The position numbers were made by a program, and so were the translations under genes. 64,000 nt of DNA from an uncultured Paracoccaceae bacterium (GTDB taxonomy: Bacteria > Pseudomonadota > Alphaproteobacteria > Rhodobacterales > Rhodobacteraceae), in contig CAJJAR010000002.1 of NCBI GenBank assembly GCA_905182105.1, forward strand, positions 62,001 to 126,000, read 5' to 3'. Of this stretch, positions 6,045-64,000 are shown piece by piece. Every line of letters starts with the position of its first letter. Position 1 is the stretch's first letter. The notes beneath the pieces are model-generated. The model had not been told where the DNA came from, did no database searches, and saw nothing but the letters and a program-made list of their open reading frames with translations.

Positions 6045-6068
6045 TTACATCTCAGGTGCTTTCAGGCC

Positions 6069-6671
6069 TTACCACATTGTCTTGGCCGCCCGCCCGCCCC
6101 ATTCTGCGTCATAAGAAAGACCACCAACTTCGCCATCAGTCATCTCTGCAAGGATTTCCCCTACAGTTGGCAATCCTTCTGCATCATCGTGTGACCATGT
6201 ACCCGCACGCATAAAAGCACGCGCACATTGGCTGTAAATCTCTGCAATTTTGATGACAATTACGGTGGCTGGTTGGATGTTCTTACGTTCAAACTGCGCC
6301 CGCAATTCAACATCATCAGTTAGGCGCGCAATTCCATTTACCCGTACAACATTGTTCGATCCAGGAACGACAAACATCAGTGACACTCGCCCATCGACGA
6401 CAATATTGCGCAACGAATCCAAGCGGTTGTTTCCACGCCAATCTGGCATCGCTAATGTGTGTTCATCAAGTTCTTTGAATGCAGGGCCATCATCGCCACG
6501 CAGGCTGCCGTCCGTGCCATCAGGACCCACAGTAGACAGCACGCACAATCGCGATGCCATTATCCACTTGCGGTAAAGCGGGGTCATCCGTGTTGCCACC
6601 TTACGCAAGGACGCATCACCCGAGGATCCATAGCGACCTCCCAGGGATGCTATGTCCTTGATCCAATTCAT
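6069..6671 (-). CDS. PPOX-class FMN-dependent flavoprotein (pyridoxamine 5'-phosphate oxidase-like)
   Basis: A 200-residue protein of the split-barrel pyridoxamine-phosphate-oxidase superfamily. The central part (STVGPDGTDGSLRGDDGPAF, then NNRLDSLRNIVVDGRVSLMF and VPGSNNVVRVNGIARL) matches the FMN-binding core of the large MSMEG_1061-type subgroup. These enzymes bind FMN or F420 and act as oxidases or reductases; no substrate can be assigned here. Its start overlaps the plsC stop by 4 nt (ATGA), so it is the last gene of the ftsE-ftsX-plsC run. The C-terminus is typical, and the gene looks intact. Confidence 0.8.
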   Translation of the reverse strand: MNWIKDIASLGGRYGSSGDASLRKVATRMTPLYRKWIMASRLCVLSTVGPDGTDGSLRGDDGPAFKELDEHTLAMPDWRGNNRLDSLRNIVVDGRVSLMFVVPGSNNVVRVNGIARLTDDVELRAQFERKNIQPATVIVIKIAEIYSQCARAFMRAGTWSHDDAEGLPTVGEILAEMTDGEVGGLSYDAEWGGRAAKTMW

Positions 6672-46910: not shown

Positions 46911-46947
46911 TACATTTTCCTTAAATTCTACTCAGCGTATTATTCGT

Positions 46948-47934
46948 TCAAAGCATAGACGGAACAACTTGATCCGGAGGTCGGTGCCCGTCCTGGAATG
47001 TTTTGATGTTGATGATGACTTTCTCACCCATTTCGATCCGGCTTTCGATTGTCGCAGATCCCATATGAGGCAACAAAACCACATTGGACATCTCACGCAA
47101 ACGCAGATTTATCTTGGTGCCTTTTTCATACACATCCAACCCAGCCCCTGCGATTGCGCCATCGCGCAGCATCCGTGCCAGTGCATTCTCGTCGATAACT
47201 TCGCCACGCGATGTGTTCACAATCACCGCACTTGGCTTCATCAACTTGAGACGCCGCGCATTCATAAGGTGGAAAGTCGACGGGGTATGAGGGCAATTGA
47301 TGCTAATCACATCCATTCGGGCAACCATTTGATCAAGGCTTTCCCAGTAGGTTGCTTGCAACTCGTCCTCAATTTCACGGCGTAACCGCCGTCTGTTGTG
47401 GTAATGAACTTGCATTCCAAATGCTGACGCGCGCTGCGCAACGGCACGACCTATGCGGCCCATGCCCAGAATTCCAATCCGACGACCGCCAATCCGACCG
47501 CCCAACAGCGCCGTCGGTGACCATCCTTGCCATTTTTCAGTCTGCATTGCAGCAAGACCTTCAGGAATACGACGAATGATCGCAAGGATCAAACCCATTG
47601 CCATATCAGCCGTGTCTTCGGTTAAGACACCGGGTGTATTTGACACTAAAACCCCACGCTCACGTGCAGTCGCAACGTCAATATTATCAACTCCAGCCCC
47701 ATAATTCGCAATCAGTTTAAGCTGTGGCCCAGCTTGCCCAATTAGCCCTGCATCAATTGTATCCGTAATTGTTGGCACCAAAACGTCAGCGGTTTTCATA
47801 GCTGCAACCAACTCTTCTTGAGTCATTGCAACGTCATCGGTACGCAGCTGAACATCAAACAGTTCGGACAGTCTTTTTTCGACGGGTTCGGGTAATCGTC
47901 GCGTCACGAACACACTTAGCCGATCCTTTGACAT
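46948..47934 (-). CDS. NAD(P)-dependent D-2-hydroxyacid dehydrogenase (D-glycerate/glyoxylate reductase type)
   Basis: A 328-residue dehydrogenase of the D-2-hydroxyacid family. The dinucleotide fold has GILGMGRIGRAVAQRA. The catalytic residues are the Arg in NTSRGEVIDE, the downstream Glu, and the His in LLPHMGSAT. The sequence is closest in style to D-glycerate dehydrogenase/glyoxylate reductase (GyaR-like). It is 37 nt upstream of the FAD-linked oxidase on the same strand and divergent from the SH3 protein gene. Confidence 0.87.
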   Translation of the reverse strand: MSKDRLSVFVTRRLPEPVEKRLSELFDVQLRTDDVAMTQEELVAAMKTADVLVPTITDTIDAGLIGQAGPQLKLIANYGAGVDNIDVATARERGVLVSNTPGVLTEDTADMAMGLILAIIRRIPEGLAAMQTEKWQGWSPTALLGGRIGGRRIGILGMGRIGRAVAQRASAFGMQVHYHNRRRLRREIEDELQATYWESLDQMVARMDVISINCPHTPSTFHLMNARRLKLMKPSAVIVNTSRGEVIDENALARMLRDGAIAGAGLDVYEKGTKINLRLREMSNVVLLPHMGSATIESRIEMGEKVIINIKTFQDGHRPPDQVVPSML

Positions 47935-50428: not shown

Positions 50429-51469
50429 TTAAAATATAAGTTGGACTTTCATGGCTTGGCTACGATCACAGGCTTGTTCAAAAGCATGTTTTGCATCTTT
50501 AATATCAAAGCTGTGAGTGATAAGTGGGTCAACCACAATCAACCGACTTTGCATCATCGTCACAGCTGTGGCAAATTCATTATGAAACCGAAAAGAGCCA
50601 CGAAGAGTGATCTCTTTCGCGGTCATTGCTTGCATCGGGACCGTCATGTCACCACCCAACCCAAGTTGAACCAGCGTACCACCTGGACGTAAGCATTCGA
50701 CGCCTGAGGCCAATGCGGGGGCTGCGCCTGAGCATTCTAGGTGGACATCAATTTGGCCTTTGTCATTATGAAACGGGATTAAAGCATCCGGGTTCTCCTT
50801 GATATTAAGCACGTCGTCTGCACCACAGCTACGTGCCTTATCTAAGGTATAATTTAAAAGGTCCGTGGCAATAATCTTCGCCGCCCCAGCCTGCCGCGCC
50901 GCAAGAATGCTAAGGCACCCGATTGGGCCACATCCGGTTATCAGCACTGTCTTACCAACCAGATCACCTGCTTGTTTGACCGCATGAAGACAAACAGCCA
51001 AAGGTTCTGCCATTGCCGCTTGTCCCGGGGTAAGCTCGTTAGCGACAACACATTGGCTGGCCAAGGCGACAAGCTGTTGTTGAAAAGCGCCTTGGATATG
51101 GGGAAAGGGCATAGCACTGCCGTAAAAACGCATATTAAGGCAGTGGTTTTGCTGCCCCCGCAAACAATAAATACAGTAATGGCAGGGTCTTGAAGGGGAA
51201 ACTGCCACAAGTTGCCCCACCTGCAATCCTTGAACACCTACACCCAAAGCCGTAATTTGCCCAGAGACCTCGTGACCTAGAACCATTGGCTCGCGCAATT
51301 GGATTGGTCCAAATCCACCATGGTTGTAATAGTGCAAGTCTGACCCACAAATACCTCCCGCCAGCATCTCGATCAACACCTCTTCGGGACCGACCACAGG
51401 CACGTCGCGCGGTTCTACACGCAGGTCACCGGCTGCGTGAATAACAATCGATTGATTTGAAGCCGTCAT
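50429..51469 (-). CDS. Zinc-dependent alcohol dehydrogenase, L-idonate 5-dehydrogenase-like
   Basis: A 346-residue medium-chain zinc dehydrogenase. Catalytic zinc ligands appear in GGICGSDLHY and LGHEVSG; the structural zinc lobe has four cysteines (CHYCIYCLRGQQNHC); the cofactor motif is GCGPIGCLSILAARQAG. Closest in style to L-idonate 5-dehydrogenase (IdnD), which oxidises L-idonate to 5-keto-D-gluconate. The divergent neighbour is an IdnO-like reductase, which supports this. The ATG at 51469 has GGAGAAA upstream; a start at 51529 would add 20 unrelated residues. Polyols with similar configuration are alternative substrates. Confidence 0.8.
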   Translation of the reverse strand: MTASNQSIVIHAAGDLRVEPRDVPVVGPEEVLIEMLAGGICGSDLHYYNHGGFGPIQLREPMVLGHEVSGQITALGVGVQGLQVGQLVAVSPSRPCHYCIYCLRGQQNHCLNMRFYGSAMPFPHIQGAFQQQLVALASQCVVANELTPGQAAMAEPLAVCLHAVKQAGDLVGKTVLITGCGPIGCLSILAARQAGAAKIIATDLLNYTLDKARSCGADDVLNIKENPDALIPFHNDKGQIDVHLECSGAAPALASGVECLRPGGTLVQLGLGGDMTVPMQAMTAKEITLRGSFRFHNEFATAVTMMQSRLIVVDPLITHSFDIKDAKHAFEQACDRSQAMKVQLIF

Positions 51470-51541: not shown

Positions 51542-52309
51542 ATGACACTCGAAATGTTTGACCTGAATGGTAGTCGCGCTCTAATCACTGGTTCTAGCCA
51601 AGGTATTGGATTTGCTTTGGCCCGCGGCCTAGCAGGTGCTGGAGCAGAAATTATCCTGAACGGGCGTGACAGTACCAAACTAGCTGAGGCAAAAACCATA
51701 TTAGAAGGCGAAGGTACAAAAGTTCATGTGCTGGCCTTTGATGTGACCGATCACGAACAGGTTAAAGTCGCCGTTAATGGGTTTGAGGAAGAGCACGGCG
51801 CGATTAACATCCTTATCAACAATGCGGGAATGCAGCACCGCGGTGCTCTTGAGGAGTTTCCAGCCGATGCATTCGAGCGATTGTTGCAAACCAATATCGC
51901 ATCTGTTTTTCACGTGGGCCAAGCGGTTGCGCGTCATATGATAGGACGTGGACAGGGTAAAATTATTAACATCGCATCAGTCCAAACTTTGCTCGCCCGT
52001 CCTGGCATTGCGCCCTATACGGCAACCAAGGGTGCGGTGGGCAATTTGACCAAAGGCATGGCGACGGATTGGGCGCAACACGGGTTAAATTGCAACGCTA
52101 TTGCACCAGGATATTTTGACACACCACTAAATGCAGCACTTGTTGCAGATCCTGAATTCAGCACATGGCTGGCCAAAAGGACGCCAGCTAGGCGTTGGGG
52201 CAATGTGGATGAGTTGGTAGGGGCGGCTGTATTCCTTTCGTCCGCAGCATCTAGTTTTGTGAACGGCCATACGCTATATGTAGACGGTGGGATTACGGCC
52301 TCACTCTAG
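51542..52309 (+). CDS. SDR-family oxidoreductase, gluconate 5-dehydrogenase (IdnO)-like
   Basis: A 255-residue short-chain dehydrogenase. It starts MTLEMFDLNGSRALITGSSQ with the glycine-rich cofactor motif GSSQGIG, has NNAG (ILINNAGMQHRG), and the catalytic Ser/Tyr/Lys (IASVQ..., PYTATKGAV). The head and the QHRGALEEFP segment match 5-keto-D-gluconate reductases (IdnO/gluconate 5-dehydrogenase). With the IdnD-like gene it would convert L-idonate to D-gluconate through 5-ketogluconate. Its TAG overlaps the stop of the convergent aldolase gene in the shared bases CTAG. Confidence 0.83.
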   Translation: MTLEMFDLNGSRALITGSSQGIGFALARGLAGAGAEIILNGRDSTKLAEAKTILEGEGTKVHVLAFDVTDHEQVKVAVNGFEEEHGAINILINNAGMQHRGALEEFPADAFERLLQTNIASVFHVGQAVARHMIGRGQGKIINIASVQTLLARPGIAPYTATKGAVGNLTKGMATDWAQHGLNCNAIAPGYFDTPLNAALVADPEFSTWLAKRTPARRWGNVDELVGAAVFLSSAASSFVNGHTLYVDGGITASL

Positions 52310-52956
52310 GCCTCCCACTCCACATTAAATTTTGTGATCACCTCTTTCACTTGCGCATCGCTCAATGCGCGTGGGGATAGCCCTCTCGTCAACATGGCCA
52401 ACTTGGCAGTGTCCTCAAGTTCTTCAACCGCGTTACACGCCGCCTCAATATCCTTGCCCGCAACAATGGGTCCGTGATTGGCCAACATTACAGCAGATCG
52501 TTTCCCTGCAAGGCCGCGCACGGCGTCACCCATCGCTGGATCACCCGGCATAAAGAAGGGCAGCAACTTCACGCGACTTAGCTTCATAATGCCGTAAGGC
52601 GTAAGGTGCGGCAGGAAATTTTCAGCGTCGACATCTGGCATCATGGAAAGTGCAACAGAGTGGCAAGAATGCAGATGAACGACCGCACCAGCTGTCGATC
52701 GAGTATCGTAAAAAGCAGTGTGCAGCGGCATCTCTTTGGTCGGCTCGTCGCCACTTATCAAAGTGCCACAAGCATCAAAACGGCTTAGTTTTGCAGGATC
52801 AAGGCGGCCAAAACTGGTTCCAGTGGGGCTTACCAATAAACCACCATCGCTAGTACGAGCAGAAATATTTCCCGTACTGCCACCTGTAAGCCCACGATCA
52901 AACATGGATTTGGCCAATACACAGATCAGTTCGCGGAGCTTTGCTTCCTCAGTCAT
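52306..52956 (-). CDS. otnC: Class II aldolase-family decarboxylase, 3-oxo-tetronate 4-phosphate decarboxylase (OtnC)-like
   Basis: A 216-residue class II aldolase/adducin-fold protein. Metal-binding residues are visible: His94 and His96 in VVHLHSCHS, the conserved Glu75, and the distal LANHGPIV motif. In the DUF1537 pathway OtnC decarboxylates 3-oxo-tetronate 4-phosphate to dihydroxyacetone phosphate. The call depends on context: the OtnK kinase gene is directly upstream with an ATGA overlap, and an LtnD-like gene precedes that. Alone, the sequence could also be a fuculose-phosphate-type aldolase. Confidence 0.85.
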   Translation of the reverse strand: MTEEAKLRELICVLAKSMFDRGLTGGSTGNISARTSDGGLLVSPTGTSFGRLDPAKLSRFDACGTLISGDEPTKEMPLHTAFYDTRSTAGAVVHLHSCHSVALSMMPDVDAENFLPHLTPYGIMKLSRVKLLPFFMPGDPAMGDAVRGLAGKRSAVMLANHGPIVAGKDIEAACNAVEELEDTAKLAMLTRGLSPRALSDAQVKEVITKFNVEWEA

Positions 52957-54224
52957 AAGTTGTCCAATCTGGCTTGGGCGTCATGAAAAAATGTGGGAGC
53001 GCCAAAGTTACCCGATTTAAGCGTTAGCGCAATTTGATGACCAGCCGAATGGCAAAATGTCCACGGCACACCAGAGGCAATTTCTACACCTATATCAAGC
53101 TGGGTTACACATAGTGCCTGTGTTACAGCTCCCGAGGTTTCTCCCCCAGCAACAATGATCCGCCGAGCACCAGCGTCCCGTGCTGCAACGGCGCAGGATG
53201 CAAGTGTTTGTTCGATCAGATCACCCACTTTCGCCACACCTATTGCTCTCTGCGCGGCCTTAACATTGCCCGGAGCAGCTGTGGCATAAATCAATGGAGC
53301 TTTAGTCAGGTCTTGTTCTGCGAGCCATGCCAAGACTGGATCGAGGCCAGTTTCTATTAATGAAAGCGGATCCAACAGATATTCAGGTGCACCACGCGCG
53401 ATGTACTCGGAGACTTGCGCATTGGTCATTGCAGAACAACTGCCAGACAGTATTATGGTCTCCTTAGCTATTTCAGGCTTTTGCATTTGGGGCGCATCTG
53501 CAGACAATGTTCCATCAGCAAGGTAAAGAGCTGGCAAAGACTTAGCAACTGCCGATCCACCCGTCATTAGAGACATATTCTGGCAGGCCTCAGCTATAAT
53601 TTCAAGATCAGGGTCAGCCACTGCATCAACCACAACGTGGGCAATGCCCTCACCTTTCAAGATATCCAATTTTGCCCGCAATGCAGCAGCCCCTTTTGCA
53701 ACGCTCAATCGGTCAGCAAGCCCAACAGGTTTGGTGACTTGTGGTGACAATAGTCGCATTAAATTGCTGTCCCGCATCGGTGTCAGTGGATGATCTCTCA
53801 TCGAACTTTCGGCCAAAGGTTGCTGTCCAACAAACAAATTACCCATAAAAATGGACCTACCATTTTCAGGAAATGCCGGGCAATAGATCGTTTGATCAAT
53901 ACCAAGGTCACTCATCAGCGCTTCAGCTACAGGACCGATGTTGCCCTCATCTGTACAGTCAAACGTCGAGCAATATTTCCAGAAAAACCGCTTTGCCCCT
54001 GCCGCCTGCAGCCACACAAGCGCAGCGCGACACTCTGCAACAGCTTGCGCCACTGGTGCGTTGCGACATTTGAGAGCGATTACCTCAAAGGGTCCAGTTT
54101 TTTTTGGTAGTTCACTTGGTACACCAATACGCAGAGAAACCTGTACGCCACTGCGAGCCAATAGCCCCGCCAAATCAGTAGCCCCAGTAAAATCATCCGC
54201 GATGCAGCCCAAAACAGTCGTCAT
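52953..54224 (-). CDS. otnK: Four-carbon acid sugar kinase (OtnK, former DUF1537)
   Basis: A 423-residue kinase with the DUF1537 N-terminal signature CIADDFTGATDLAGLLARSG, the internal GNLFVGQQPLAESSMRDHPL and SGSCSAMTNAQV blocks, and the C-terminal ATP-binding VAGGETSGAVTQAL. OtnK-type enzymes phosphorylate 3-oxo-tetronates at O4. It begins directly after the stop of the LtnD-like gene (TAAATG) and overlaps the OtnC start by 4 nt, so all three are coupled. Confidence 0.9.
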   Translation of the reverse strand: MTTVLGCIADDFTGATDLAGLLARSGVQVSLRIGVPSELPKKTGPFEVIALKCRNAPVAQAVAECRAALVWLQAAGAKRFFWKYCSTFDCTDEGNIGPVAEALMSDLGIDQTIYCPAFPENGRSIFMGNLFVGQQPLAESSMRDHPLTPMRDSNLMRLLSPQVTKPVGLADRLSVAKGAAALRAKLDILKGEGIAHVVVDAVADPDLEIIAEACQNMSLMTGGSAVAKSLPALYLADGTLSADAPQMQKPEIAKETIILSGSCSAMTNAQVSEYIARGAPEYLLDPLSLIETGLDPVLAWLAEQDLTKAPLIYATAAPGNVKAAQRAIGVAKVGDLIEQTLASCAVAARDAGARRIIVAGGETSGAVTQALCVTQLDIGVEIASGVPWTFCHSAGHQIALTLKSGNFGAPTFFHDAQARLDNL

Positions 54225-55145
54225 TTAAGCACCACCTTTTTCGTCTTGACCCGGCAACGTCAGGCCCGCATTTCGTGCATATACCTTAGCAACTGCCGCG
54301 TCATCCTCAGCCCCCAATCCCATACCAGAGGCCGCAACGAACTGCTGCATCGCGGCAGCGGTAATGGGCGCACTGAAGCTTGCATTCTTGGCAATGTCGA
54401 GAACAATACCAAGGTCTTTCGGCCAAATATTTACCGAACTGTGCGGTGTATAATTCCCCGCAGCAATATGTGGCGCACGATTTTCAAGCATCCAACTGGT
54501 GCCTGCGCATTTGCTGATCACGTCGATAAATTTGTCAGGCGTCACACCTTGGGTCATTCCAAAAGTCATCGCCTCCGCCATTGTTGCGATGTGTACGCCA
54601 GCTAACAACTGGTTCACAGCCTTCATTGCGCTTCCCGCTCCAGCGGTATCGCCCAGTTCAAAAACAGTTTCTGCAATGCTGTCGAGGACGGGACGCAGGG
54701 CTGAAAAGGCCTCCAGGGTGCCCGCAGCCATAATGGACAACGCCCCGTTTGCAGCTTTGAGCGAACCACCAGAAATTGGTGCATCTAGATACAGCACATC
54801 GAATTCGGCGCAGCGCTTGGCCATTTCTTTTGCAAACTCTGGAGGGACTGTGGCGCAAGACAACACCGCTGCCCCTGCTCGAAGTTTTGGCACGATCCCG
54901 TTAGCACCGAACAAGACATCTTCAGTTTGGGTTGCATTCAAAACAGCAACAATGACGGTGTCTAGCTGATCAACCACATTGCTCAACACAGCGCTTTCTC
55001 CACCTTCACCAACAAACAGCTGCATCTGTTCCACGTTAATATCGAGACCCCAGACTTCGTGTCCACCCCGAAGAGCGGATTGCGCAATGCCGTAACCCAT
55101 GGAACCTAGTCCAATAGCTGCAACTTTATGCTTTGAATCACTCAT
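54225..55145 (-). CDS. ltnD: 3-hydroxyisobutyrate-dehydrogenase-family enzyme, L-threonate dehydrogenase (LtnD)-like
   Basis: A 306-residue NAD(P)-dependent dehydrogenase. It has the N-terminal Rossmann motif IGLGSMGYGIAQ, the substrate-binding APISGGSLKAANGALSIMA, the catalytic Lys in AMKAVNQLLAGVHIATMAEA, and IWPKDLGIVLDIA. In tetronate degradation LtnD oxidises L-threonate to the 2-oxo acid. Its position directly before otnK and otnC supports LtnD over the related glyoxylate or tartronate-semialdehyde reductases. The ATG at 55145 is used; a GTG three codons upstream (55154) is an alternative. Confidence 0.82.
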   Translation of the reverse strand: MSDSKHKVAAIGLGSMGYGIAQSALRGGHEVWGLDINVEQMQLFVGEGGESAVLSNVVDQLDTVIVAVLNATQTEDVLFGANGIVPKLRAGAAVLSCATVPPEFAKEMAKRCAEFDVLYLDAPISGGSLKAANGALSIMAAGTLEAFSALRPVLDSIAETVFELGDTAGAGSAMKAVNQLLAGVHIATMAEAMTFGMTQGVTPDKFIDVISKCAGTSWMLENRAPHIAAGNYTPHSSVNIWPKDLGIVLDIAKNASFSAPITAAAMQQFVAASGMGLGAEDDAAVAKVYARNAGLTLPGQDEKGGA

Positions 55146-55189
55146 TTTATTCACTCACTCCCATAAATTTAAAAATTAATGTATTTCAT

Positions 55190-55780
55190 TCAATGCCCTG
55201 GAAAAAGCGCCACCAGCACCACAACAACCAGCGAGGCAGCCATAGCAATGTTGATGAACCGCTGTGCTTTGGGGCTCAGGTCAAGGCTCCCCAGCTTGGC
55301 TCCAGCCCCCAGCCAGATAAGGTGTACAGGCAACCAGATCATATTAAAAACGATCAACTTGATCACCACTTCCCAGAAGGGCGCTTGGGGCAAAAAGCCA
55401 AAGCCCAAGAACAGTGTTGTTGCCACCACATAGGCTTTGGGATTAATGAGTTGCAGTAAAAATCCATTGCGGAAACCCAACGGTTTAGTCGCAGCTGTGA
55501 AACCAATATGGGCCCCTGCCGTAGCGATCCTCCAAGCCAAATAGGTCAGATAACCAACCGATGCAAACAATAGAACCACTCGTAGCCATGGCACCGTCAG
55601 GACCACAGCGGCAAGGCCTGAAATCACCAGCACCATTGTAAACGCACCCCCGAGCATCAGCCCACCGACATAGGCAAAGCCCGCGCGATAGCCATAGGCT
55701 GCCCCGATGCCCGCCGTTGATAAAACCCCTGGTCCAGGCGTCATCAACAGGAAAAAAACGGCCAGCGCAAATTCGATCAT
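55190..55780 (-). CDS. LysE/RhtB-family membrane transporter
   Basis: A 196-residue protein with about six hydrophobic segments and the LysE-family signature near the N-terminus (LMTPGPGVLSTAGIGAAYG). Family members export amino acids or small metabolites. Inside the sugar-acid operon it may remove an accumulating intermediate or act on a related acid; no substrate can be inferred from sequence. It starts 17 nt after the stop of the 2-hydroxyacid dehydrogenase gene. Confidence 0.8.
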   Translation of the reverse strand: MIEFALAVFFLLMTPGPGVLSTAGIGAAYGYRAGFAYVGGLMLGGAFTMVLVISGLAAVVLTVPWLRVVLLFASVGYLTYLAWRIATAGAHIGFTAATKPLGFRNGFLLQLINPKAYVVATTLFLGFGFLPQAPFWEVVIKLIVFNMIWLPVHLIWLGAGAKLGSLDLSPKAQRFINIAMAASLVVVVLVALFPGH

Positions 55781-55796: not shown

Positions 55797-56720
55797 TTAC
55801 AAGCCAGCGCATTCAGGTACAGGGCTGATCACAGTGCCATCTTTGAGGTTTTGCAACAAATTATCTACCACCAACGCGCCCATCGCAGCGCGTGTCTCCA
55901 TCGTGCCACTGCCAACATGGGGCAATAGAACCGTATTAGGCAAATCACGTAAAGCTTGCGACACCTTAGGTTCCTCTTCAAAAACGTCTAAGCCTGCCCA
56001 ACCAAGCTTCCCACTTTTTAGAGCCTCTATCATTGCCATTTCGTCCACAACAGAACCACGGCTGACGTTGATTAAAGTGCCTTTTGGCCCCAAGGCCTCC
56101 ATCACTTCAGCGTTCACGATTTTATTAGTTGATGGACCTCCCGGTGTGATGCAAATCAACACGTCACAATCTCGCGCCATCGCCGTAAGATCATCATAGT
56201 AGGTATAAGGAAGAACTTTCTTGGTACGCGTATGATAAAGGATTTTGGCATTCCACGGAGCGAGTTTGTCAGCAATCGCCTGCCCAATTCGACCCAGACC
56301 AAGGATACCAACAGTTTGGTTGTCAGCCGAACGAGTTAGCGGCGCGTTGCCCTTCGCCTCCCACTCACCAGAGCGAAGATATTCATCGTCACGCAGCACT
56401 TCACGGTAACATGACAGCATCAAAAGCAGCGCTGTTGTCGCCACCTCCTCGTTCAAAACATTGGGTGTATGGGTCACGATGATTCCACGACGTGCCGCTT
56501 CGTTTGCATCAACAGCGTCATAGCCAACGCCGTAGCCGCTGATCACTTTCAGATTTGTCAGTGACGCCATTAGATCAGGGTTTACCCCGTCGTGGCCATT
56601 AGTGACCACATGGGTAATTTTATCTGCATCAAAAGCATCCAGTTGATGAATGGTAAACGCCGCAGCCAGCCGTTCCTGCATAGTGTCAGTGATACCGCCT
56701 ATTTGTAAAAGATCAGGCAT
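55797..56720 (-). CDS. D-2-hydroxyacid dehydrogenase
   Basis: A 307-residue dehydrogenase of the D-2-hydroxyacid family: cofactor motif GILGLGRIGQAIAD, catalytic Arg in NVSRGSVVDE, catalytic Glu in EEEP, and His in LLPHVGSGT. In this operon it could interconvert glyoxylate/glycolate, hydroxypyruvate/glycerate or pyruvate/D-lactate, which are products of the presumed diketo-acid cleavage. The ATG at 56720 overlaps the end of the FAH-family gene by 8 nt; a longer start at 56750 lies further inside that gene and is less likely. Confidence 0.86.
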   Translation of the reverse strand: MPDLLQIGGITDTMQERLAAAFTIHQLDAFDADKITHVVTNGHDGVNPDLMASLTNLKVISGYGVGYDAVDANEAARRGIIVTHTPNVLNEEVATTALLLMLSCYREVLRDDEYLRSGEWEAKGNAPLTRSADNQTVGILGLGRIGQAIADKLAPWNAKILYHTRTKKVLPYTYYDDLTAMARDCDVLICITPGGPSTNKIVNAEVMEALGPKGTLINVSRGSVVDEMAMIEALKSGKLGWAGLDVFEEEPKVSQALRDLPNTVLLPHVGSGTMETRAAMGALVVDNLLQNLKDGTVISPVPECAGL

Positions 56721-57561
56721 CTTGGCCAACTTTCTGGCACTGATGACCAAGGCCTTGAATACTCAAGTCCATTATATCACCTTCCTTCAGGAATACTGGT
56801 TCCGGTTTCATACCAAGCCCTACACCCGGAGGGGTGCCCGTGGTGATCACATCGCCAGGGTGTAAAGTCATCAAGCTTGAAAGATGTTCGATGATTTCGG
56901 CCACGGTAAAGATCATCGTGGAAGTGTTGCCCCTTTGCATTCGCTTTCCGTTAACGTCCAAGGCCATATCCAGTTTTTGAGGATCAACAACCTCGTCTCG
57001 TGTGACAAGCCATGGACCCGTCGGGCCAAAGGTGTCGCAGGATTTACCCTTAGTCCATTGGCCTGTTAGGTTAGCTTGAAAATGGCGTTCAGAAACGTCG
57101 TTGACTATGCAATATCCCGCAACGTGGTCCAGCGCGTTCTCTTTTGTAACGTACTTGGCAGCTTTGCCGATGACCACACCCAGCTCGACCTCCCAATCAG
57201 TTTTGGTAGATCCGCGTGGTATCATCACATCATCATAGGCCCCAACAATGGCGGAGTTGGCTTTAAAAAACAGGATCGGATGTTTGGGAATTTCAGCGCC
57301 AGTTTCAGCAGCGTGGTCAGAATAATTCAACCCGATACAAAGGAATTTTCCAATATTTCCAACGCAAGGCGCGATGCGCTGTTTACCTTCAACAATTGGC
57401 AAAATCTCCGGATCAAGGGCGCGCAGTTTAGCTATATTGGCATCATCAAGCATATCACCATTGATGTCGTTCACATGCTCGGACAGATCTCGCAAAATAC
57501 CAGCATCATCTAGAATTCCAGGTTTTTCGGCACCGATCGCACCGTAGCGGAGAAGTTTCAT
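56713..57561 (-). CDS. Fumarylacetoacetate hydrolase (FAH)-family enzyme, probable 2,4-diketo-3-deoxyaldonate hydrolase
   Basis: A 282-residue FAH-fold protein. The metal-binding region is GSTKTDWEVELGVVIGK and VNDVSERHFQ, and the Ser/Thr loop TTGTPPGVGLG is near residue 250. Known members in sugar-acid clusters hydrolyse 2,4-diketo-3-deoxy-L-rhamnonate, -fuconate or -pentonate to pyruvate plus a hydroxyacid. The neighbouring SDR and dehydratase genes match that scheme. The ATG at 57561 gives the family start MKLLRYG, and GAAGGAA lies upstream; a start at 57615 would lie inside the dehydratase gene. Confidence 0.82.
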   Translation of the reverse strand: MKLLRYGAIGAEKPGILDDAGILRDLSEHVNDINGDMLDDANIAKLRALDPEILPIVEGKQRIAPCVGNIGKFLCIGLNYSDHAAETGAEIPKHPILFFKANSAIVGAYDDVMIPRGSTKTDWEVELGVVIGKAAKYVTKENALDHVAGYCIVNDVSERHFQANLTGQWTKGKSCDTFGPTGPWLVTRDEVVDPQKLDMALDVNGKRMQRGNTSTMIFTVAEIIEHLSSLMTLHPGDVITTGTPPGVGLGMKPEPVFLKEGDIMDLSIQGLGHQCQKVGQDA

Positions 57562-57580
57562 AGTCGTTCCTTCTTTCTTC

Positions 57581-59392
57581 TTAGTGGTTGTCACGCGGCA
57601 TAAACTGGCGCGCAATATCTTGATATTTGTCGGCGTCTTTAAGGATCATACCCTCATCAAGACGGCCAACTTTCTCTCGGAAAATTTCCTGCCAGGGCGT
57701 TTGGCTGTCTGGAATGTGGTAGCCACCATTTTCAAGCAGCAAGCGCGCACGCGCATTGAGCTCATCCAGAGGGACCAGCATATTGACTGTCGCTTTGCCC
57801 AAATCAATCCTCACAGGGTCACCCGTTTGCAACAATGCAAGACCCCCATTGTCTGCAGCCTCAGGTGAAGCATTCAGAATAGATGGGGAGCCAGACGTAC
57901 CCGATTGACGCCCATCACCAATACACGGCAGGGCATCAACTCCTTGTTTGATCAGATAAGATGGCGGACGCATGTTCACAACTTCTGCAGCACCTGGGTA
58001 ACCCTTGGGGCCCGTACCGCGCATGAACAGAATGCAATTTCCATCGATATTTTCAGTTGGATCATCAATGCGGTGATGGAAATCCTCTGGCCCATCAAAG
58101 ACGACAGCACGCCCTTCAAAGGCTTCGGGATCATGAGGGTTTGAGAGATAGGTTTTTCGAAAAGCTGGCGAGATGACTGAGGTCTTCATGATCGCACTTT
58201 CAAACAAATTCCCCGAGAAATTAACGAAGCCTGCCTGTTCCTTTATTGGGTCTGTTGAGGACTTAATCACATCTTTGCTCTTCGACCTTTGGGTCCTACA
58301 ATTTTCCGCCAAAGTTTGCCCATTTACAGTCATTACATCAGGATGGGGCAACAACCCACCTGCAATCAATTCACCGACGACAGCAGGTACACCGCCTGCA
58401 CGGTGATAATCTTCGCCCAGATATTTGCCAGCTGGCTGCATGTTTACCAAAAGTGGAATATCGTGACCGTGTTTTTGCCAATCATCATTATCGAGCGGCA
58501 CACCCAAATGCCGCGCAATAGCGTTCAAGTGGATGGGGGCATTCGTTGACCCGCCAACTGCAGAATTGATAACAATGGCATTTTCAAAAGCTTGGCGCGT
58601 CATAACATCTGTGGGGCGCATATCTTCCCACACCATATTAACGACCCGTTTGCCCGTCTCGTAGCTGATTTGTCCACGTTCACGGTAAGGCGCTGGAATT
58701 GAAGCAGATCCGGGCAATTGCATTCCCAAAGCTTCGGCCAATGAATTCATTGTTGTCGCAGTGCCCATCGTGTTACAATACCCAACAGAGGGCGCAGATG
58801 CGGCCGCAATTTCCATGAATTCATCAGTGTCGATATTGCCTGCAGCCAACTGCTCTCGGGCTTTCCAAATCACGGTACCTGAACCCGCTCGTTCCCCGTT
58901 CCACCAGCCGTTCAACATCGGACCAACGGACAACGCAATGGCAGGGATATTTACCGTGGCAGCGGCCATCAAAAGTGCAGGTGTCGTCTTATCACAACCG
59001 ATGTTGAGTACAACGCCGTCAATTGGATAGCCAAATAGCGTCTCTACCAGAGACAAATAGGCAAGGTTCCGATCCAAGGACGCAGTCGGTCGCTTGCCCG
59101 TTTCCTGAATGGGATGCACCGGGATTTCGATGCATGTTCCACCCGCTGCTATAATCCCATCACGCACGCGTTTCGTCAGCTCAATGTGGTGGCGATTGCA
59201 CGGTGACAAATCACTGCCCGTCTGTGCAATTCCGATGATCGGCTTGCCTGACTGCAGCTCCTCTCGTGTCAAACCATAGTTTAAATACCGCTCCAGATAG
59301 AGGGCTGTCATTTCTAGATTGTCGGGGTTCATAAACCATTTGCGAGACCGCAGGTTTTCAACGCCAATTTTTGCATTTTTAGGGAAGGTCAT
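57581..59392 (-). CDS. IlvD/Edd-family dehydratase, probable aldonate dehydratase
   Basis: A 603-residue iron-sulfur dehydratase. Three conserved cysteines that would hold the cluster are present: Cys65 (SPCNRHH), Cys133 ([10 protein letters not shown]) and Cys206 (GYCNTMGTA), and the C-terminal half has [18 protein letters not shown]. The sequence is of the sugar-acid branch (L-arabinonate, D-xylonate or gluconate dehydratase) rather than a biosynthetic IlvD, judged by the long N-terminal extension and the [17 protein letters not shown] block. It would convert an aldonate to a 2-keto-3-deoxyaldonate. Its start overlaps the SDR stop by 4 nt (ATGA). Confidence 0.87.
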
Positions 59393-60150
59393 TGGCCACT
59401 CCAGCCTCCATCAATTATATGAGTGTGTCCTGTAGTGAAACCACTTTCGTCACTGCCAAGGTAGACAACCAATGCCGCAATTTCCTCAGCACTAGCTACG
59501 CGGCCCATGGGCTGGCGTGACACGAATTGCTTCATCGCCTCGTCATAGCTACCCAGTTCTTCGCCTAAAGTCTTAACGCGATCATGCCAGCTTGGGCTTT
59601 CTACAGTGCCCGGACATATACAGTTACAGCGGATGCCTTGCTTAATGTAATCGACTGCGACCGATTTGGTCATACCAACCACCGCTGCTTTGGTCGCGCC
59701 ATAGATAAACCGATTGGGGGCACCGATGATAGATCCGGCAGCCGAGGACATATTAATGATTGACCCACCACCACGCTCAATCATTCCAGGTAACGCGGCG
59801 CGCACGGTACGCACCATAGACCGCACGTTAAGGTCAAAGGCAAAGTCCCATTCATCATCCGTCGCATCCAAAATTGCACCGTGGTGCACAAAGCCTGCGC
59901 AGTTGAACAAGACGTCTGGTTTAGTCTTGGTAACCCCATCCAAAATACTTTCAGAATCTCGCACATCAAGTTCGAAAATTTCAATATTTTCGAGATTCGC
60001 ATCCCGAATCGTGGATAATGCATCCATGTTTACATCCGTCGCAAAGACCTGCGCACCCTCTTTGGACATAGCAATTACACTGGCCCGTCCGATCCCCTGA
60101 CCTGCTGCTGTTATCAAAACACGCTTTCCTCTAAGCCTTTGTCCAGTCAT
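59389..60150 (-). CDS. SDR-family oxidoreductase, probable 2-keto-3-deoxyaldonate 4-dehydrogenase
   Basis: A 253-residue short-chain dehydrogenase with cofactor motif [16 protein letters not shown] ([12 protein letters not shown]), and the catalytic Ser/Tyr/Lys ([19 protein letters not shown]); the C-terminus [10 protein letters not shown] is typical. In clusters with a dehydratase and an FAH hydrolase, such SDRs oxidise the C4 hydroxyl of 2-keto-3-deoxy acids. It is first in the minus-strand operon, with AAGGTGA upstream of the ATG, and its stop overlaps the dehydratase start. Confidence 0.82.
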
Positions 60151-60335
60151 GATTTTTCACCTTCATATACTATTTTTCTCACCTGTCTTTTGCTTTGCGA
60201 GCTTTATCTTTTAGCCCAATCCCAATGTAAATTAAATTAGGACACTGGAACTTTTAAGCGGATAAGTTACCGTATGACAGAGATTTAGATTTGACCATAA
60301 CCCGCACGAGTTTCTGATGCAAAAGGACCAATGTC

Positions 60336-61220
60336 ATGAATCAAGCCCGCAAGATTACCCTAATCGGTACTGGCCTAATGGGCATTCCAATGTCCCGTAA
60401 TCTGATGGCGGCAGGGTATGATTTGACAGTCTGGAACCGCACCATCAATCGCACGACACCACTTGTAAATGAAGGAGCAAAAACTGCTCCAACAGCTGCG
60501 GAGGCTATTTCGAGTGCACAAGTCATCATAACGATGTTGTCAGACGGGTTCGCGACACAAGCGCTCCTCGATGATAAAGAATTTCAATCAAAATTAACCG
60601 CTGGAATGATCTGGATAGACATGTCCAGCGCCAAGCCGGAACACGCCCGCGCTCAATCAGCCCAGCTGGCCAAATTTGGTGTAGCCCACCTTGATGCCCC
60701 AGTGTCTGGCGGAACCAAAGGCGCGGAAGCAGGAACCCTTGCTATCATGGCAGGTGGCGATCTGGTAATTTTTGAAGATGTGTGCAGTGTCTTTGACGCG
60801 ATGGGCCATCCTGTTTATGTGGGACCTTCCGGTACAGGCCAACTGTGCAAATTGGCAAATCAGACCATCGTTGCGGTGACAATTTCTGCGGTGGCCGAGG
60901 CGACGCTACTGGCCGAAAAAGGCGGTGCTGATCCCGCCGCTTTACGTGCCGCACTTAAAGGAGGTTTTGCAGACAGCGTGATTTTGCAGCAGCACGGGGA
61001 ACGGATGTCGACAGGGAATTTCGCCCCCGGTGGACTGTCAAAATTTCAGGTTAAAGACCTTGATAACACATTAGCAGAAGCAGAAGCCCTCGGGCTGGAA
61101 CTCCCAGCGACCCAAGCTGTGAGAGATCGGTTTGCACATTTTTGCGAAGAAATGGATGGCGCTGATCTGGACCATTCGGGACTATATCTGGAACTTAAAA
61201 GTAGGAATGACCTGATATGA
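60336..61220 (+). CDS. 3-hydroxyisobutyrate-dehydrogenase-family reductase (tartronate-semialdehyde reductase/LtnD type)
   Basis: A 294-residue dehydrogenase with GTGLMGIPMSRNL (cofactor), APVSGGTKGAEAGTLAIMAG (substrate), GPSGTGQLCKLANQTIVAVT with the catalytic Lys, and QVKDLDNTLAEAEALG. This second paralogue in the island resembles GarR/GlxR (2-hydroxy-3-oxopropionate reductase) as much as LtnD. It is paired by an ATGA overlap with the DenD-like gene and transcribed opposite to the main operon, so it may act on the same C4 acids or on tartronate semialdehyde. Confidence 0.78.
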   Translation: MNQARKITLIGTGLMGIPMSRNLMAAGYDLTVWNRTINRTTPLVNEGAKTAPTAAEAISSAQVIITMLSDGFATQALLDDKEFQSKLTAGMIWIDMSSAKPEHARAQSAQLAKFGVAHLDAPVSGGTKGAEAGTLAIMAGGDLVIFEDVCSVFDAMGHPVYVGPSGTGQLCKLANQTIVAVTISAVAEATLLAEKGGADPAALRAALKGGFADSVILQQHGERMSTGNFAPGGLSKFQVKDLDNTLAEAEALGLELPATQAVRDRFAHFCEEMDGADLDHSGLYLELKSRNDLI

Positions 61221-62182
61221 GTAAAATCCTTATCCTCGGCGGTGGAGGAATGATTGGCCAAAAACTCGCTAAGCGGATTATTGAAACAAATGTCATGGCC
61301 AATTCTGAACTGACGCTCTTTGACCGCGCCTTTACAAGTAATGCTTTGGTTGCAAAAACTATGACCGGAAACTTAGCTAACCCCACGACAGCGAAGACGC
61401 TCGCGGCCAGTCGTCCTGAGGTAATTTTTCATCTTGCAGCGATTGTATCGGGTCAAGCGGAAGCCGAATTTAATCTTGGCTGGAACGTGAACATGATGGC
61501 GATGTGGCATCTTTTAAATGCCCTCAAAGTTGAACATGAGGCGTCTGGTTGCACCTATCGCCCACGTTTGGTTTTCACTTCTTCCATTGCGGTGTTTGGC
61601 GGGCCTTATCCAGAAAAGATCGGCGATGAGTTTCTGTCTGCGCCACAGACCAGCTATGGCGCACAAAAAGCAACTTGCGAATTAATGGTCAATGATTTTA
61701 GCCGAAAAGGCATCATTGATGGGCTATCATTACGGCTACCCACCATTTGCGTGCGACCTGGCAAAGCTAATGCAGCAGCATCTTCGTTCTTTTCGGGAAT
61801 CATTCGGGAGCCTTTAAACGGATTCGAGGCGATCTTGCCTGTCGCAGATACCGTGCGCCACTGGCACGCCAGCCCGCGTGCTGCGGCGCAGTTCCTGATC
61901 CATGCAGCTTTGCTAGATACAAAAATATTGAACGGGCGACGTGCGCTGAACCTTCCCGGGTTTAGCTGTACAGTTGCCGAACAAATCGAAGCCTTGCGCC
62001 ATGCCGCAGGCCAAAAGGCAGTTGACCTAATCAAATCCGTACCAGACGAAACCATCATCAATATGGTAAGCGGATGGCCACGCGATTTCCAGCCAGACCG
62101 TGCGATTTCGCTGGGGTTTGAAGCAGAGAAAAGTTTTAATGAAATCATCGAAGTCTACATGCAGGATGATCTTAGTACTTAG
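61217..62182 (+). CDS. denD: NAD-epimerase-family D-erythronate dehydrogenase (DenD)-like
   Basis: A 321-residue extended SDR. It has the N-terminal motif ILGGGGMIGQKLAKRI, the catalytic Ser in VFTSSIAVFGGPYPE, and Tyr/Lys in SYGAQKATCELM. The LRLPTICVRPGKANAAASS block is characteristic of the D-erythronate dehydrogenase group used with OtnK/OtnC. It would oxidise D-erythronate to 2-oxo-D-erythronate. It is coupled to the upstream reductase by ATGA, and its TAG overlaps the stop of the convergent regulator gene. Confidence 0.83.
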   Translation: MSKILILGGGGMIGQKLAKRIIETNVMANSELTLFDRAFTSNALVAKTMTGNLANPTTAKTLAASRPEVIFHLAAIVSGQAEAEFNLGWNVNMMAMWHLLNALKVEHEASGCTYRPRLVFTSSIAVFGGPYPEKIGDEFLSAPQTSYGAQKATCELMVNDFSRKGIIDGLSLRLPTICVRPGKANAAASSFFSGIIREPLNGFEAILPVADTVRHWHASPRAAAQFLIHAALLDTKILNGRRALNLPGFSCTVAEQIEALRHAAGQKAVDLIKSVPDETIINMVSGWPRDFQPDRAISLGFEAEKSFNEIIEVYMQDDLST

Positions 62183-62829
62183 CCATCTAATGTCTTGCCT
62201 GTCATATGTCGTTCAAGGTGATCGTAAATTTTGGCACGCGTTAGGCTCTCGTTTCCTGACAAGGCAGCGTCTAAAATTTCGGCATGGTGCTGGATGTTCT
62301 CGGAGATGAAATTGAATTTGCGGTCCGCGACCATCAACTGTTGTCGGAATTGAGCATAGATGCGACCGTGAGTTTGGTACAAGATCTCAGATCCACAGGC
62401 CGAAATAAGGGTTTGGTGAAACTCGTTTTCGGAATTGAACCAAATGTCCACCAGATCAGACGGATCATCCATGTCGTGAATACGCTTTTCGATATGGCTA
62501 AGTTTATGATGCGCAGCTGTCAAGCGGGCTTCCCAAGCCACACCGCCATTGCGGATCGACATAATCGTGCCTTCACTTTCCAAAAGTACCCGCAAATGCG
62601 TCAGTTCGATCAATTTTTTGACGGAGCGGTTAGGCACGCGAAATCCGCGCTGCTCCTGAAAATGAACCAGCCCTATTGCAGATAATCGGAACAAGGCCTC
62701 GCGTACGGTGCTGGCTGCACAGCCAAACTCCTCACGCAGTAGTTCGGCACGCAGTTTCGCACCATGTTCGAAAGCATTCGAGATTAGGCGTTTTTTGAGT
62801 TCTTGATAAAGGTCAACTTCTTGGGACAT
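62179..62829 (-). CDS. GntR/FCD-family transcriptional regulator
   Basis: A 216-residue regulator: N-terminal winged helix-turn-helix (about 5-70, LREEFGCAASTVREALFRLS, GLVHFQEQRGFRV) and a C-terminal FCD ligand domain (about 80-205, ELTHLRVLLESEG, NSENEFHQTLISACG, HAEILDAAL). FCD-GntR proteins usually repress sugar-acid genes and release DNA when a sugar acid binds. The ATG at 62829 yields MSQEVDLYQELKKRL; the frame extends upstream to 62919 but the extra 30 residues are not family-like. Divergent from the TRAP binding-protein gene, a likely target. Confidence 0.87.
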   Translation of the reverse strand: MSQEVDLYQELKKRLISNAFEHGAKLRAELLREEFGCAASTVREALFRLSAIGLVHFQEQRGFRVPNRSVKKLIELTHLRVLLESEGTIMSIRNGGVAWEARLTAAHHKLSHIEKRIHDMDDPSDLVDIWFNSENEFHQTLISACGSEILYQTHGRIYAQFRQQLMVADRKFNFISENIQHHAEILDAALSGNESLTRAKIYDHLERHMTGKTLDG

Positions 62830-62886: not shown

Positions 62887-63024
62887 ATACCAAAATCTCG
62901 AAATTAAGGATAATTTCACTTTTTCCTTGTTGGATATAATTCTTCAGCTAAACTCAGATTAGCGTAATTTAAGTGGAGTCTCGTAAACCTCCAGTAACAC
63001 ACGCTCAACGTCTGGGAGGACAAC

Positions 63025-64000
63025 ATGAAACTATTCAAAACAGCGGCTACATTAGCTGTCGCCGCAACTATGGTTGCTGGTACTGCGATGGCCGGCGGTC
63101 ACGCAACAACGAAACTTCGTATTCAAACGCACTTTTCGCCTGAGACATTGTCTGGCAAAATGGCTGCTAAATATATCGATGACATTCAAACAATGTCGAA
63201 CGGTGAAATTGCGGTGGAAATGTTCTATTCCTCATCAGTAGTGAAGTCAGTTGAGACTTTTGACGCCGCAGCCACAGGTATTCTTGATTGTGACATGACC
63301 GGCGGAGCTTACCAAACTGGTAAAAACCCTGCATTCCAATTTGCGGGCGACCTCATGGGCGGCTACCAAAATCCATACCAGCAGATGGCTTGGTTGCTTC
63401 ACGGTAATGGTCGTGCAGCTTTGAACGGTTTGTACAATGGCTATGATATGGAATTCATTGGTTGGTGGATTCCTGGCCCAGAATCTTTGGCTTCAACCAG
63501 CCCTATCCGCAACGCAGATGACTTCAAGGATTGGAAATTCCGCTCCCCCCCAGGCCTCGCAACCAAAGTTTTCTCGGCTATGGGTGCATCTCCAATCGTA
63601 ATGGATTTCAACGAAATCTTCACTGCACTTGAAACAGGTATCATTGATGGCGCAGACGCAGCGAACTTGACTAACAATGTTGGCTTGGGTCTTTACGACA
63701 TTGCAAATCACACCAACTTTCCTGGCTTTCACTCTATGCCAGCTGACCACCTTGCATGCCGCAAGGATGTTTGGGACGCAATGCCGGACAACCACAAGCG
63801 CATCATGGAAGTCGCAATGGACAGCCTTGCATTGCACAACGCTACTATCAACGAAGTCCAAAATGCCCAGACTGCTAAAGATCTACGCGCAAAAGGTGTG
63901 AACCTTTACGAGTGGACACCTGAAGATCTGGCCAAGTACCGCGCCGCTGTACAAACAGGTTGGACTGAATTTGCCACAACACCGGAAGCCAAGGCATTGC
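63025..64000 (+). CDS. TRAP transporter periplasmic substrate-binding protein, DctP family (3' end outside the window)
   Basis: The frame opens at ATG 63025 after GGGAGGACAAC, a strong ribosome-binding site, and runs to the right edge without a stop (325 codons visible). It begins with a signal peptide (KLFKTAATLAVAATMVAGTA, cleaved near MAGGHA), followed by a DctP-type binding domain: IQTHFSPETLSGKMAAKYID, WKFRSPPGLATKVFSAMG with the ligand-binding Arg, and FTALETGIIDGADAAN. TRAP systems import carboxylates, here most likely the sugar acids degraded by the island. Membrane subunits are expected just beyond the window. Confidence 0.92.
   Translation, partial: MKLFKTAATLAVAATMVAGTAMAGGHATTKLRIQTHFSPETLSGKMAAKYIDDIQTMSNGEIAVEMFYSSSVVKSVETFDAAATGILDCDMTGGAYQTGKNPAFQFAGDLMGGYQNPYQQMAWLLHGNGRAALNGLYNGYDMEFIGWWIPGPESLASTSPIRNADDFKDWKFRSPPGLATKVFSAMGASPIVMDFNEIFTALETGIIDGADAANLTNNVGLGLYDIANHTNFPGFHSMPADHLACRKDVWDAMPDNHKRIMEVAMDSLALHNATINEVQNAQTAKDLRAKGVNLYEWTPEDLAKYRAAVQTGWTEFATTPEAKAL

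Follow-up and report, generated by a model that had tools for sequence, protein, structure and literature searches.

The 64,000-nucleotide stretch of DNA analysed here in full (the window), taken from contig CAJJAR010000002.1 (positions 62,001 to 126,000) of an uncultured Paracoccaceae bacterium whose genome assembly measures 2.66 Mb and is 88.5% complete, carries at positions 55797-60150, on the minus strand, four open frames which encode, in the order of transcription, a short-chain dehydrogenase/reductase (SDR), a dehydratase of the IlvD/EDD superfamily, a hydrolase of the fumarylacetoacetate hydrolase (FAH) fold and a D-2-hydroxyacid dehydrogenase (D2HDH). Sequence comparisons lead us to propose, with good confidence, that these four genes constitute a non-phosphorylative sugar-acid operon of the Route III kind, supplied by a tripartite ATP-independent periplasmic (TRAP) transporter, and that the tetronate genes adjoining it are a separate system added to the run. 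Route III, in which a 2-keto-3-deoxy acid is oxidised at C4 and then hydrolysed to pyruvate plus glycolate or lactate, is biochemically established in Herbaspirillum huttiense (PMC6336799, in part; here and below these words mark a source available in excerpt). The operon is well conserved, probably functional and of this already known kind. It would represent a widespread marine Roseobacter-group pathway, with every step encoded at a single place alongside a TRAP transporter, that converts sugar acids to pyruvate plus an acid of two or three carbons (C2-C3) and spends no ATP on phosphorylation. If its substrate were fixed, new names could be given to genes that present models call 'dihydroxy-acid dehydratase' or 'fumarylacetoacetate hydrolase family', and one could follow a route for the carbon of sugar acids in the environment.

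Gene order and conservation of the four-gene core

The SDR gene (59389-60150; Pfam adh_short_C2, 188.8 bits) is followed by those of the dehydratase (57581-59392; ILVD_EDD_N, 343.4 bits; NCBIfam PRK13017, 1005 bits over a cut-off of 684), the FAH-fold protein (56713-57561; FAA_hydrolase, 247.8 bits) and D2HDH (55797-56720; 2-Hacid_dh_C, 164.7 bits), and these open frames, with Pfam scores far above the gathering thresholds, bear out the order given by a first-pass annotation made from the letters alone. The ATG starts of the FAH protein (57561) and D2HDH (56720) are our own reading, the listed frames opening at TTG 57615 and TTG 56750, respectively.

Conservation was followed in two sets of loci. 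The named set (L147-L226) holds the best 80 of 286 relatives by dehydratase similarity, nearly all titled Rhodobacteraceae or one of its genera, and the family set (L065-L144) holds 80 of the 261 genomes with an FAH match, hand-picked by FAH similarity; the two overlap (L065 and L164 are an example) and their counts are therefore not summed. Genes at a locus were tallied from matches of at least 40% identity, and gene order in the named set was counted from all matches at E 1e-20. Residue frequencies come from alignments of the best match per locus in L019-L027, L065-L144 and L147-L226 plus the window, with some genomes entering twice; a match had to align over more than 150 residues in a stop-free frame. 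The order SDR-dehydratase-FAH-D2HDH is kept strictly, strand included, at 52 of the 80 named-set loci, and the full order recurs at 23 of the 80 family-set loci; it is thus not a product of chance. The named-set loci further carry the TRAP solute-binding protein DctP (53/80), a GntR regulator (50/80), GarR (48/80), DenD (47/80), a GarD-type dehydratase (45/80), two kinds of enolase-superfamily gene (30/80 and 22/80), LysE (15/80, behind D2HDH or behind an enolase-superfamily gene that follows D2HDH) and IdnD (8/80).

A congener locus (L025; G011:C8:54000-73500) has a dehydratase matched as several fragments interrupted by TGA stops, and its FAH and D2HDH are only about 50% identical to those of the window; its SDR, DenD, GarR and DctP still match at 70-92%. 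Its dehydratase-to-D2HDH part may be decaying, or the sequence may be of poor quality. Among the matches listed for titles and abstract openings of open-licence PubMed Central articles, there was no account of this Rhodobacteraceae cluster or of Route III joined to tetronate genes, and a keyword search of a paper on Ruegeria pomeroyi transporters (PMC10130141, in part) yielded nothing on this cluster.

Predicted functions of the four enzymes

The nearest solved chains to the SDR (8y11, 8xwk and 8y4j; E about 1e-85) are those of the H. huttiense L-2-keto-3-deoxyfuconate (L-KDF) 4-dehydrogenase (PMC11199699, in part), the identity to 8xwk being 57.6% across 245 residues. In the H. huttiense enzyme the type-1 pattern consists of Arg148, Arg192, Arg214 and Thr183, Trp252 contacts the C6 methyl group, catalysis is the task of Ser137-Tyr151-Lys155, and NAD+ is served by a pair made up of Asp and a hydrophobic residue (PMC11199699, in part). 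When these positions were placed by hand on the alignment to the solved chain (chain numbering +4), the window SDR proved to retain R148, T183, R192, R214 and W252 together with the Ser-Tyr-Lys set and the Asp-hydrophobic pair, as expected of a type-1 enzyme. Of 113 aligned sequences, 110 keep the R-T-R-R pattern, 109 the Trp, 112 the Ser and all of them the Tyr and the Lys. The gene is hence annotated as a predicted NAD+-dependent 2-keto-3-deoxy-sugar-acid 4-dehydrogenase of type 1, acting on L-KDF or D-2-keto-3-deoxypentonate (D-KDP). The H. huttiense enzyme uses acids with a 4(S)-hydroxyl, in decreasing order of preference L-KDF, 2-keto-3-deoxy-L-galactonate (L-KDGal), D-KDP and 2-keto-3-deoxy-D-gluconate (D-KDGlu), and is weak on L-2-keto-3-deoxypentonate (PMC11199699, in part).

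The dehydratase, predicted to be a [2Fe-2S] and Mg2+ enzyme acting on sugar acids, has the cluster cysteines C65, C133 and C206, as well as D134, K135, E470, the catalytic S497 and a C-terminal H603; one of the two Mg-binding glutamates was located. The C-terminal histidine is a marker of sugar-acid dehydratases within IlvD/EDD (PMC11316719, in part) and is present in 123 of 123 aligned sequences, which places the window protein in that subfamily. The chain 7m3k, which bears the label galactonate dehydratase, is 69.8% identical to it, and 5oyn, the D-xylonate dehydratase of Caulobacter crescentus, 60.8%; the L-arabinonate dehydratase model gives 504.9 bits (cut-off 882). Two other identities were rejected: biosynthetic IlvD (TIGR00110, 337.7 bits against 618.15) and the 6-phosphogluconate dehydratase Edd (TIGR01196, 184.3 against 708.25), each of which is represented elsewhere in the genome by a separate gene over the cut-off (655.5 and 920.3 bits, respectively). 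An enzyme confined to dihydroxyisovalerate, which the first-pass annotation had named as the outcome that would undo its prediction, is thus not what the family-level evidence suggests.

For the FAH-fold protein the nearest solved chain is the L-2,4-diketo-3-deoxyrhamnonate hydrolase 8gsr (E 3.4e-91, 54.4% identity), and we regard it as a predicted 2,4-diketo-3-deoxy-acid hydrolase giving pyruvate. The catalytic pair His83/Glu86 described for the H. huttiense hydrolase C785_RS20550 (PMC6336799, in part) occurs at the same numbers in the window protein, H83 being found in 145 and E86 in all of 146 aligned sequences, so that the His/Glu signature of the Route III hydrolases is complete. The same annotation had feared a protein acting only on fumarylacetoacetate or ureidoglycolate; the former half of this concern is removed at the family level, the fumarylacetoacetase model TIGR01266 giving 25.2 bits against a cut-off of 375.3, and for the latter, no ureidoglycolate-lyase model appears among the seven FAH matches listed, ureidoglycolate activity having had no specific test. 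A search across the family gave 261 of the 295 genomes an FAH match with an E value no higher than 1e-70. In the family set, the dehydratase accompanies 31 of the 41 FAH proteins with at least 70% identity versus 5 of the 39 below 70%, 19 of the latter carrying an SDR match; the hydrolase would thus have two or more branches in the family. The genome of the window also holds a broken second FAH copy (L027, G000:C37, around 5504-6178; 68% identical, with two TGA stops), flanked by another FAH-family gene and by what looks by eye like a peptidase M24/creatinase-like gene.

D2HDH is closest to the NADPH-dependent glyoxylate/hydroxypyruvate reductases 5v72 and 5j23 (E 3.9e-74) and shares with them a YHTRT stretch, whose Arg we take to be the NADP phosphate binder. 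Residues of the catalytic type are kept among 103 aligned sequences (Arg in 102, His in 101, Glu in 90). Both curated models are missed, GhrB with 188.3 bits against 492 and GhrA with 78.5 against 403. A D-specific enzyme of this sort would fit glycolate/glyoxylate or D-glycerate/hydroxypyruvate better than L-lactate. About 8 kb away, at 45504-47934, a GlcD-like FAD oxidase (351/568 bits) lies beside a second glyoxylate reductase-like D-2-hydroxyacid dehydrogenase (308/455 bits), and this pair might handle glycolate or glyoxylate.

Proposed pathway and its likely substrate

Gene order, families, catalytic residues and conservation are observed; from them we infer each reaction, what the transporter carries and which way the final step runs, as follows. 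An aldonate would be imported by the TRAP transporter and dehydrated across C2-C3 by the IlvD/EDD enzyme to a 2-keto-3-deoxy acid whose C4 hydroxyl is in the (S) configuration; C4 would then be oxidised by the SDR with NAD+ to yield a 2,4-diketo-3-deoxy acid, which the FAH protein would split hydrolytically into pyruvate and a hydroxy acid; and D2HDH, probably with NADP(H), would turn this hydroxy acid into the corresponding 2-oxo acid or the reverse (the pair being glycolate and glyoxylate, or D-glycerate and hydroxypyruvate). LtnD, OtnK and OtnC would perform a separate degradation of L-threonate, joined to the run in this lineage. The dehydration, C4 oxidation and hydrolysis that had been predicted for the locus find support in homology and in active-site residues.

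D-xylonate, giving pyruvate and glycolate, is our tentative first choice of a single substrate, at somewhat under an even chance, because a D-xylonate/D-gluconate-like dehydratase occurs together with a 4(S) dehydrogenase and a D2HDH resembling glyoxylate/hydroxypyruvate reductases. Next in line are C6 acids, for instance D-gluconate and L-galactonate; D-xylonate is put before gluconate since the genome has edd and a 2-keto-3-deoxygluconate (KDG) kinase-like gene (219.5/400 bits) for the gluconate branch.

Several observations weigh against the Route III operon as drawn here or against its preferred substrate. The FAH protein scores 424.3 bits on NF053535 (2,4-didehydro-3-deoxy-L-rhamnonate hydrolase) and misses the cut-off of 500, so it is not assigned as that exact enzyme. 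Among dehydratase structures the nearest one, 7m3k, carries the label galactonate dehydratase. The window dehydratase has SGTS, as does 7m3k, and this last Ser is found in 122 of 123 aligned sequences, 5oyn and 5j83 having SGTA; judged by the motif, the SGTS-bearing dehydratases would form a subtype. The dehydratase is also found without an FAH match at 18 of the 80 named-set loci and without SDR, FAH and D2HDH altogether at 12, and three congener contigs (L022-L024) hold a 78-79% identical copy with no SDR, FAH or D2HDH within 6-11 kb. At the other end of the pathway, an NADPH-type reductase would oppose the oxidation of glycolate. Lastly, the H. huttiense SDR favours L-KDF 12-fold over D-KDP (PMC11199699, in part), and the Trp contacting the C6 methyl, retained in the window SDR, would rather favour L-fuconate.

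The latter points lead to an operon for L-fuconate (or L-galactonate), in which L-KDF would be converted to pyruvate and L-lactate (or L-glycerate). The characterised type-1 SDR does prefer L-KDF and L-KDGal (PMC11199699, in part), the Trp is conserved in 109 of 113 aligned SDRs, and the UxaA/GarD-family dehydratase (45/80 named-set loci) and the enolase-superfamily genes (22/80 and 30/80) belong to superfamilies that both include L-fuconate dehydratases (PMC6336799, in part). On the other hand, the dehydratase of the operon itself is nearer the D-xylonate/D-gluconate type, a D-2-hydroxyacid dehydrogenase would be unsuited to L-lactate, and neither an L-fucose dehydrogenase nor a fuconolactonase was found among the matches listed for the proteins scanned (for SDRs, the best 25 families), one Gfo/Idh gene being without assignment. 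We consider such an L-fuconate (or L-galactonate) operon unlikely.

Much further down the scale, cis-4-hydroxy-L-proline, or some other acid not derived from a sugar, would be what the enzymes act upon. In such a route, dehydratase and FAH neighbours have no function known to us. The human 4-oxo-L-proline reductase BDH2, 52.3% identical to the window SDR, has the same SDR residues, the arginine set included, which speaks both for this alternative and against a sugar-acid assignment from residues, and the H. huttiense SDR is weakly active on cis-4-hydroxy-L-proline (PMC11199699, in part). All considered, we judge this alternative highly improbable and retain a sugar acid as the substrate of the Route III operon.

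Relation to the tetronate genes

Downstream of D2HDH, and likewise on the minus strand, lie a LysE-family exporter-like membrane protein (55190-55780; Pfam LysE, 50.2 bits), the L-threonate dehydrogenase LtnD (54225-55154; NF043037, 405.6 bits, cut-off 350), the 3-oxo-tetronate kinase OtnK of the DUF1537 family (52953-54224; NF043035, 521.5 bits, cut-off 350) and the 3-oxo-tetronate 4-phosphate decarboxylase OtnC (52306-52956; NF043034, 285.4 bits, cut-off 250). The last three thus pass the curated cut-offs for tetronate (L-threonate) degradation, as does DenD on the other side of the core. With starts as we read them, the gaps from the SDR to OtnC measure -4, 19, -8, 16, 35, 0 and -4 bases, so that the eight genes make up one tightly packed same-strand run and the contiguity of the diketo-acid genes with the tetronate module, pointed out by the first-pass annotation, is confirmed. 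OtnI is missing from the run; the one OtnI-like match of this 88.5%-complete genome lies on contig C49 (274.6 bits, cut-off 325).

This contiguity is real but sporadic among relatives. LtnD-OtnK-OtnC adjoin the core in 2 of the 80 named-set loci, both from Roseobacter (L165 and L168), on the opposite side of the core from that in the window. Among the matches listed for the family set, OtnK and OtnC, without LtnD, stand near FAH in 1 of 80 loci (L089, genome G117), where D2HDH and an enolase-superfamily gene precede them; another locus (L080) has an LtnD-like gene by itself near the core. Of the same-genus relatives in which the core is read through (G008, G009, G001 and G011; a fifth contig, of G007, stops inside the dehydratase), G008 alone has the tetronate genes there, with an OtnI-like gene adjoining OtnC. 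In G001, estimated to be 100% complete, LysR, LtnD, OtnK, OtnC and an OtnI-like gene (259/325 bits) form a cluster of their own about 219 kb from the four-gene core. With the tetronate genes scarce beside the core, in at least three unlike arrangements, and separate in G001, the association looks like a local addition.

The OtnI-like gene is near an FAD-monooxygenase-like gene both on C49 of the window's genome and at the G001 cluster (61% identity for the OtnI-like pair, 52% for the other), a weak hint that LtnD-OtnK-OtnC may have left the OtnI-like place on C49. The window OtnK is 42% identical to that of G001 (L237:5889-7121), compared with 69% for LtnD and 78% for OtnC, both kinases being over the cut-off; the kinase gene may have been exchanged.

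The combined C4 to C6 acid pathway put forward for this locus is accordingly not borne out, the tetronate genes standing at 2 of 80 named-set loci and some 219 kb away in G001. We nevertheless weighed the idea that tetronate and diketo-acid genes are one physiological unit answering to the same inducing signal. In its favour are the tight spacing of the eight same-strand genes and the presence of OtnK and OtnC beside the core in L165, L168 and G117 too, in arrangements unlike that of the window; such neighbourhoods in several lineages speak, if weakly, for a link in physiology. OtnK also occurs in the genomes of 15 of the 24 family-set loci with a core DenD versus 20 of the 56 without it (two-sided p 0.048; 15/24 versus 18/56, p 0.014, when restricted to OtnK over the curated cut-off), values drawn from 104 OtnK matches and uncorrected for relatedness and genome size. 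Against it are the low count of two named-set loci, the separate G001 cluster behind its LysR gene, a terminator-like stem ahead of LysE, and the 9 of 24 genomes with a core DenD in which no OtnK match was found at E 1e-60. These nine keep a DenD over the curated cut-off, which would there have no such kinase to feed, unless the kinase was missed in the drafts; a DenD label need not imply tetronate use. A single physiological unit is therefore rather improbable to us, and we favour an independent Route III operon with a tetronate addition.

The stem mentioned above, between D2HDH and LysE (55789-55762), is with 11 pairs the longest terminator-like one of our scan, and LysE-LtnD-OtnK-OtnC may be on a transcript separate from that of the first four genes. 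The window has 14 terminator-like matches against a shuffle mean of 13.2 and 8 promoter-like ones against 12.8, i.e. no excess, so the stem proves nothing either way.

Flanking genes, transporter and regulatory elements

Two plus-strand genes of the conserved core are found next to the SDR: a divergent GarR-like beta-hydroxyacid dehydrogenase (60336-61220; TIGR01505, 239 bits, missing the cut-off of 340.75) and the D-erythronate dehydrogenase family protein DenD (61217-62182; NF043036, 355.1 bits, cut-off 325). They are followed by a minus-strand transcriptional regulator with Pfam GntR and FCD domains (62179-62829; the ATG at 62829 is our own reading of a frame listed from GTG 62919) and, on the plus strand, by DctP (63025-64000, running beyond the window; NF037995, 88.5 bits, cut-off 50). 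Beyond OtnC lie a gluconate 5-dehydrogenase-like SDR on the plus strand (51542-52309; PRK07523, 468.1 bits, cut-off 413; gluconate 5-dehydrogenase model, 305.7, cut-off 408) and an L-idonate 5-dehydrogenase-like zinc dehydrogenase on the minus strand (50429-51469; 356.8 bits, missing the cut-off of 469; the ATG at 51469 is again our reading, the listed frame opening at TTG 51529).

On the same contig past the window, DctP is followed by an enolase-superfamily gene and by DctQ and DctM (the latter two named by eye); there are also a UxaA/GarD-family dehydratase (374/731 bits on the galactarate dehydratase model), a gene of the Gfo/Idh family and another GarR-like one. Glucuronate breakdown is represented by glucuronate isomerase (489 bits, cut-off 387) and mannonate dehydratase (439, cut-off 200), accompanied by the KDG-kinase-like gene (219.5 bits, missing the cut-off of 400). 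The enolase-superfamily gene between DctP and DctQ (L018:4089-5294) has as its nearest solved chains 4ggb/4hpn and 5olc, which we take to be galactarolactone and 3,6-anhydro-D-galactonate cycloisomerases. A role of GarR in tartronate semialdehyde metabolism via glyoxylate carboligase is not supported, the best Gcl match in this 88.5%-complete genome reaching 318.9/711 bits and none passing the cut-off.

In view of these neighbours, it is tempting to speculate on the Roseobacter-group core as an undescribed hub with multiple inputs, comprising TRAP, GntR, DenD/GarR, SDR, IlvD/EDD, FAH, D2HDH and the dehydratases of the UxaA/GarD type and of the enolase superfamily, with the IdnD/gluconate-5-dehydrogenase-like pair as a further member at some loci. 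Three unrelated dehydratase superfamilies and two epimerising oxidation/reduction pairs would then channel C5 and C6 acids (and C4 acids in this lineage) to one exit through the 4-dehydrogenase and the hydrolase, and the core DenD and GarR would alter the stereochemistry of the incoming aldonate instead of serving tetronates. We consider such a hub doubtful, and keep to the simpler Route III operon.

A GAAATT-N6-AATTTC palindrome upstream of the GntR gene (62900-62917), a candidate operator, has its sole exact copy in the window there, and with up to two mismatches 8 matches are found in the window against a shuffle mean of 4.67. At this tolerance it occurs in 29 of 51 GntR/DctP regions as opposed to 0.5 in single-base shuffles, a count inflated by the kinship of the regions. 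It is absent from all 50 SDR-side regions, so that control of the SDR operon by GntR is unsupported; an operator common to the SDR/GarR and GntR/DctP regions was searched for and not found. The sequence GTTAGCGTA, between the SDR and its divergent neighbour (60151-60335), is exact in 33 of the 50 SDR-side regions, compared with 0.2 in single-base shuffles, and occurs in 6 of 51 GntR/DctP regions, the window copy having one mismatch. It is a candidate promoter element or site for some regulator.

Comparison with known systems

The closest parallel is the Route III pathway of H. huttiense (SDR C785_RS13675, hydrolase C785_RS20550; PMC6336799, in part), with which the window operon would share the reaction logic, the SDR type and the His83/Glu86 pair. 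The genetic layouts differ: in the available part of that report RS13675 shares cluster 1 with a D-arabinonate dehydratase of the UxaA/GarD type, clusters 3 and 4 hold the pentonate dehydratases of IlvD/EDD, and RS20550 lies elsewhere to judge by its locus number, whereas the window has SDR, IlvD/EDD dehydratase, hydrolase and D2HDH in one run beside a TRAP transporter. The L-rhamnonate Route III (2-keto-3-deoxy-L-rhamnonate 4-dehydrogenase SKA58_03590, hydrolase SKA58_03585; PMC6336799, in part) is alike in its FAH protein, as the 54.4% identity to 8gsr indicates, but the window has an SDR of the 4(S) L-KDF/D-KDP type and a dehydratase of IlvD/EDD.

The C. crescentus D-xylonate dehydratase 5oyn, at 60.8% identity, has the same cluster and metal residues and C-terminal His as the window enzyme. 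It differs by carrying SGTA in place of SGTS, and in the Weimberg route its product ends up as 2-oxoglutarate instead of pyruvate and glycolate. Finally, with respect to L-threonate/D-erythronate catabolism (LtnD/DenD-OtnI-OtnK-OtnC), the LtnD, OtnK, OtnC and DenD of the window all pass the NCBIfam cut-offs; the differences are that the run here is without OtnI and that DenD belongs to the conserved core.

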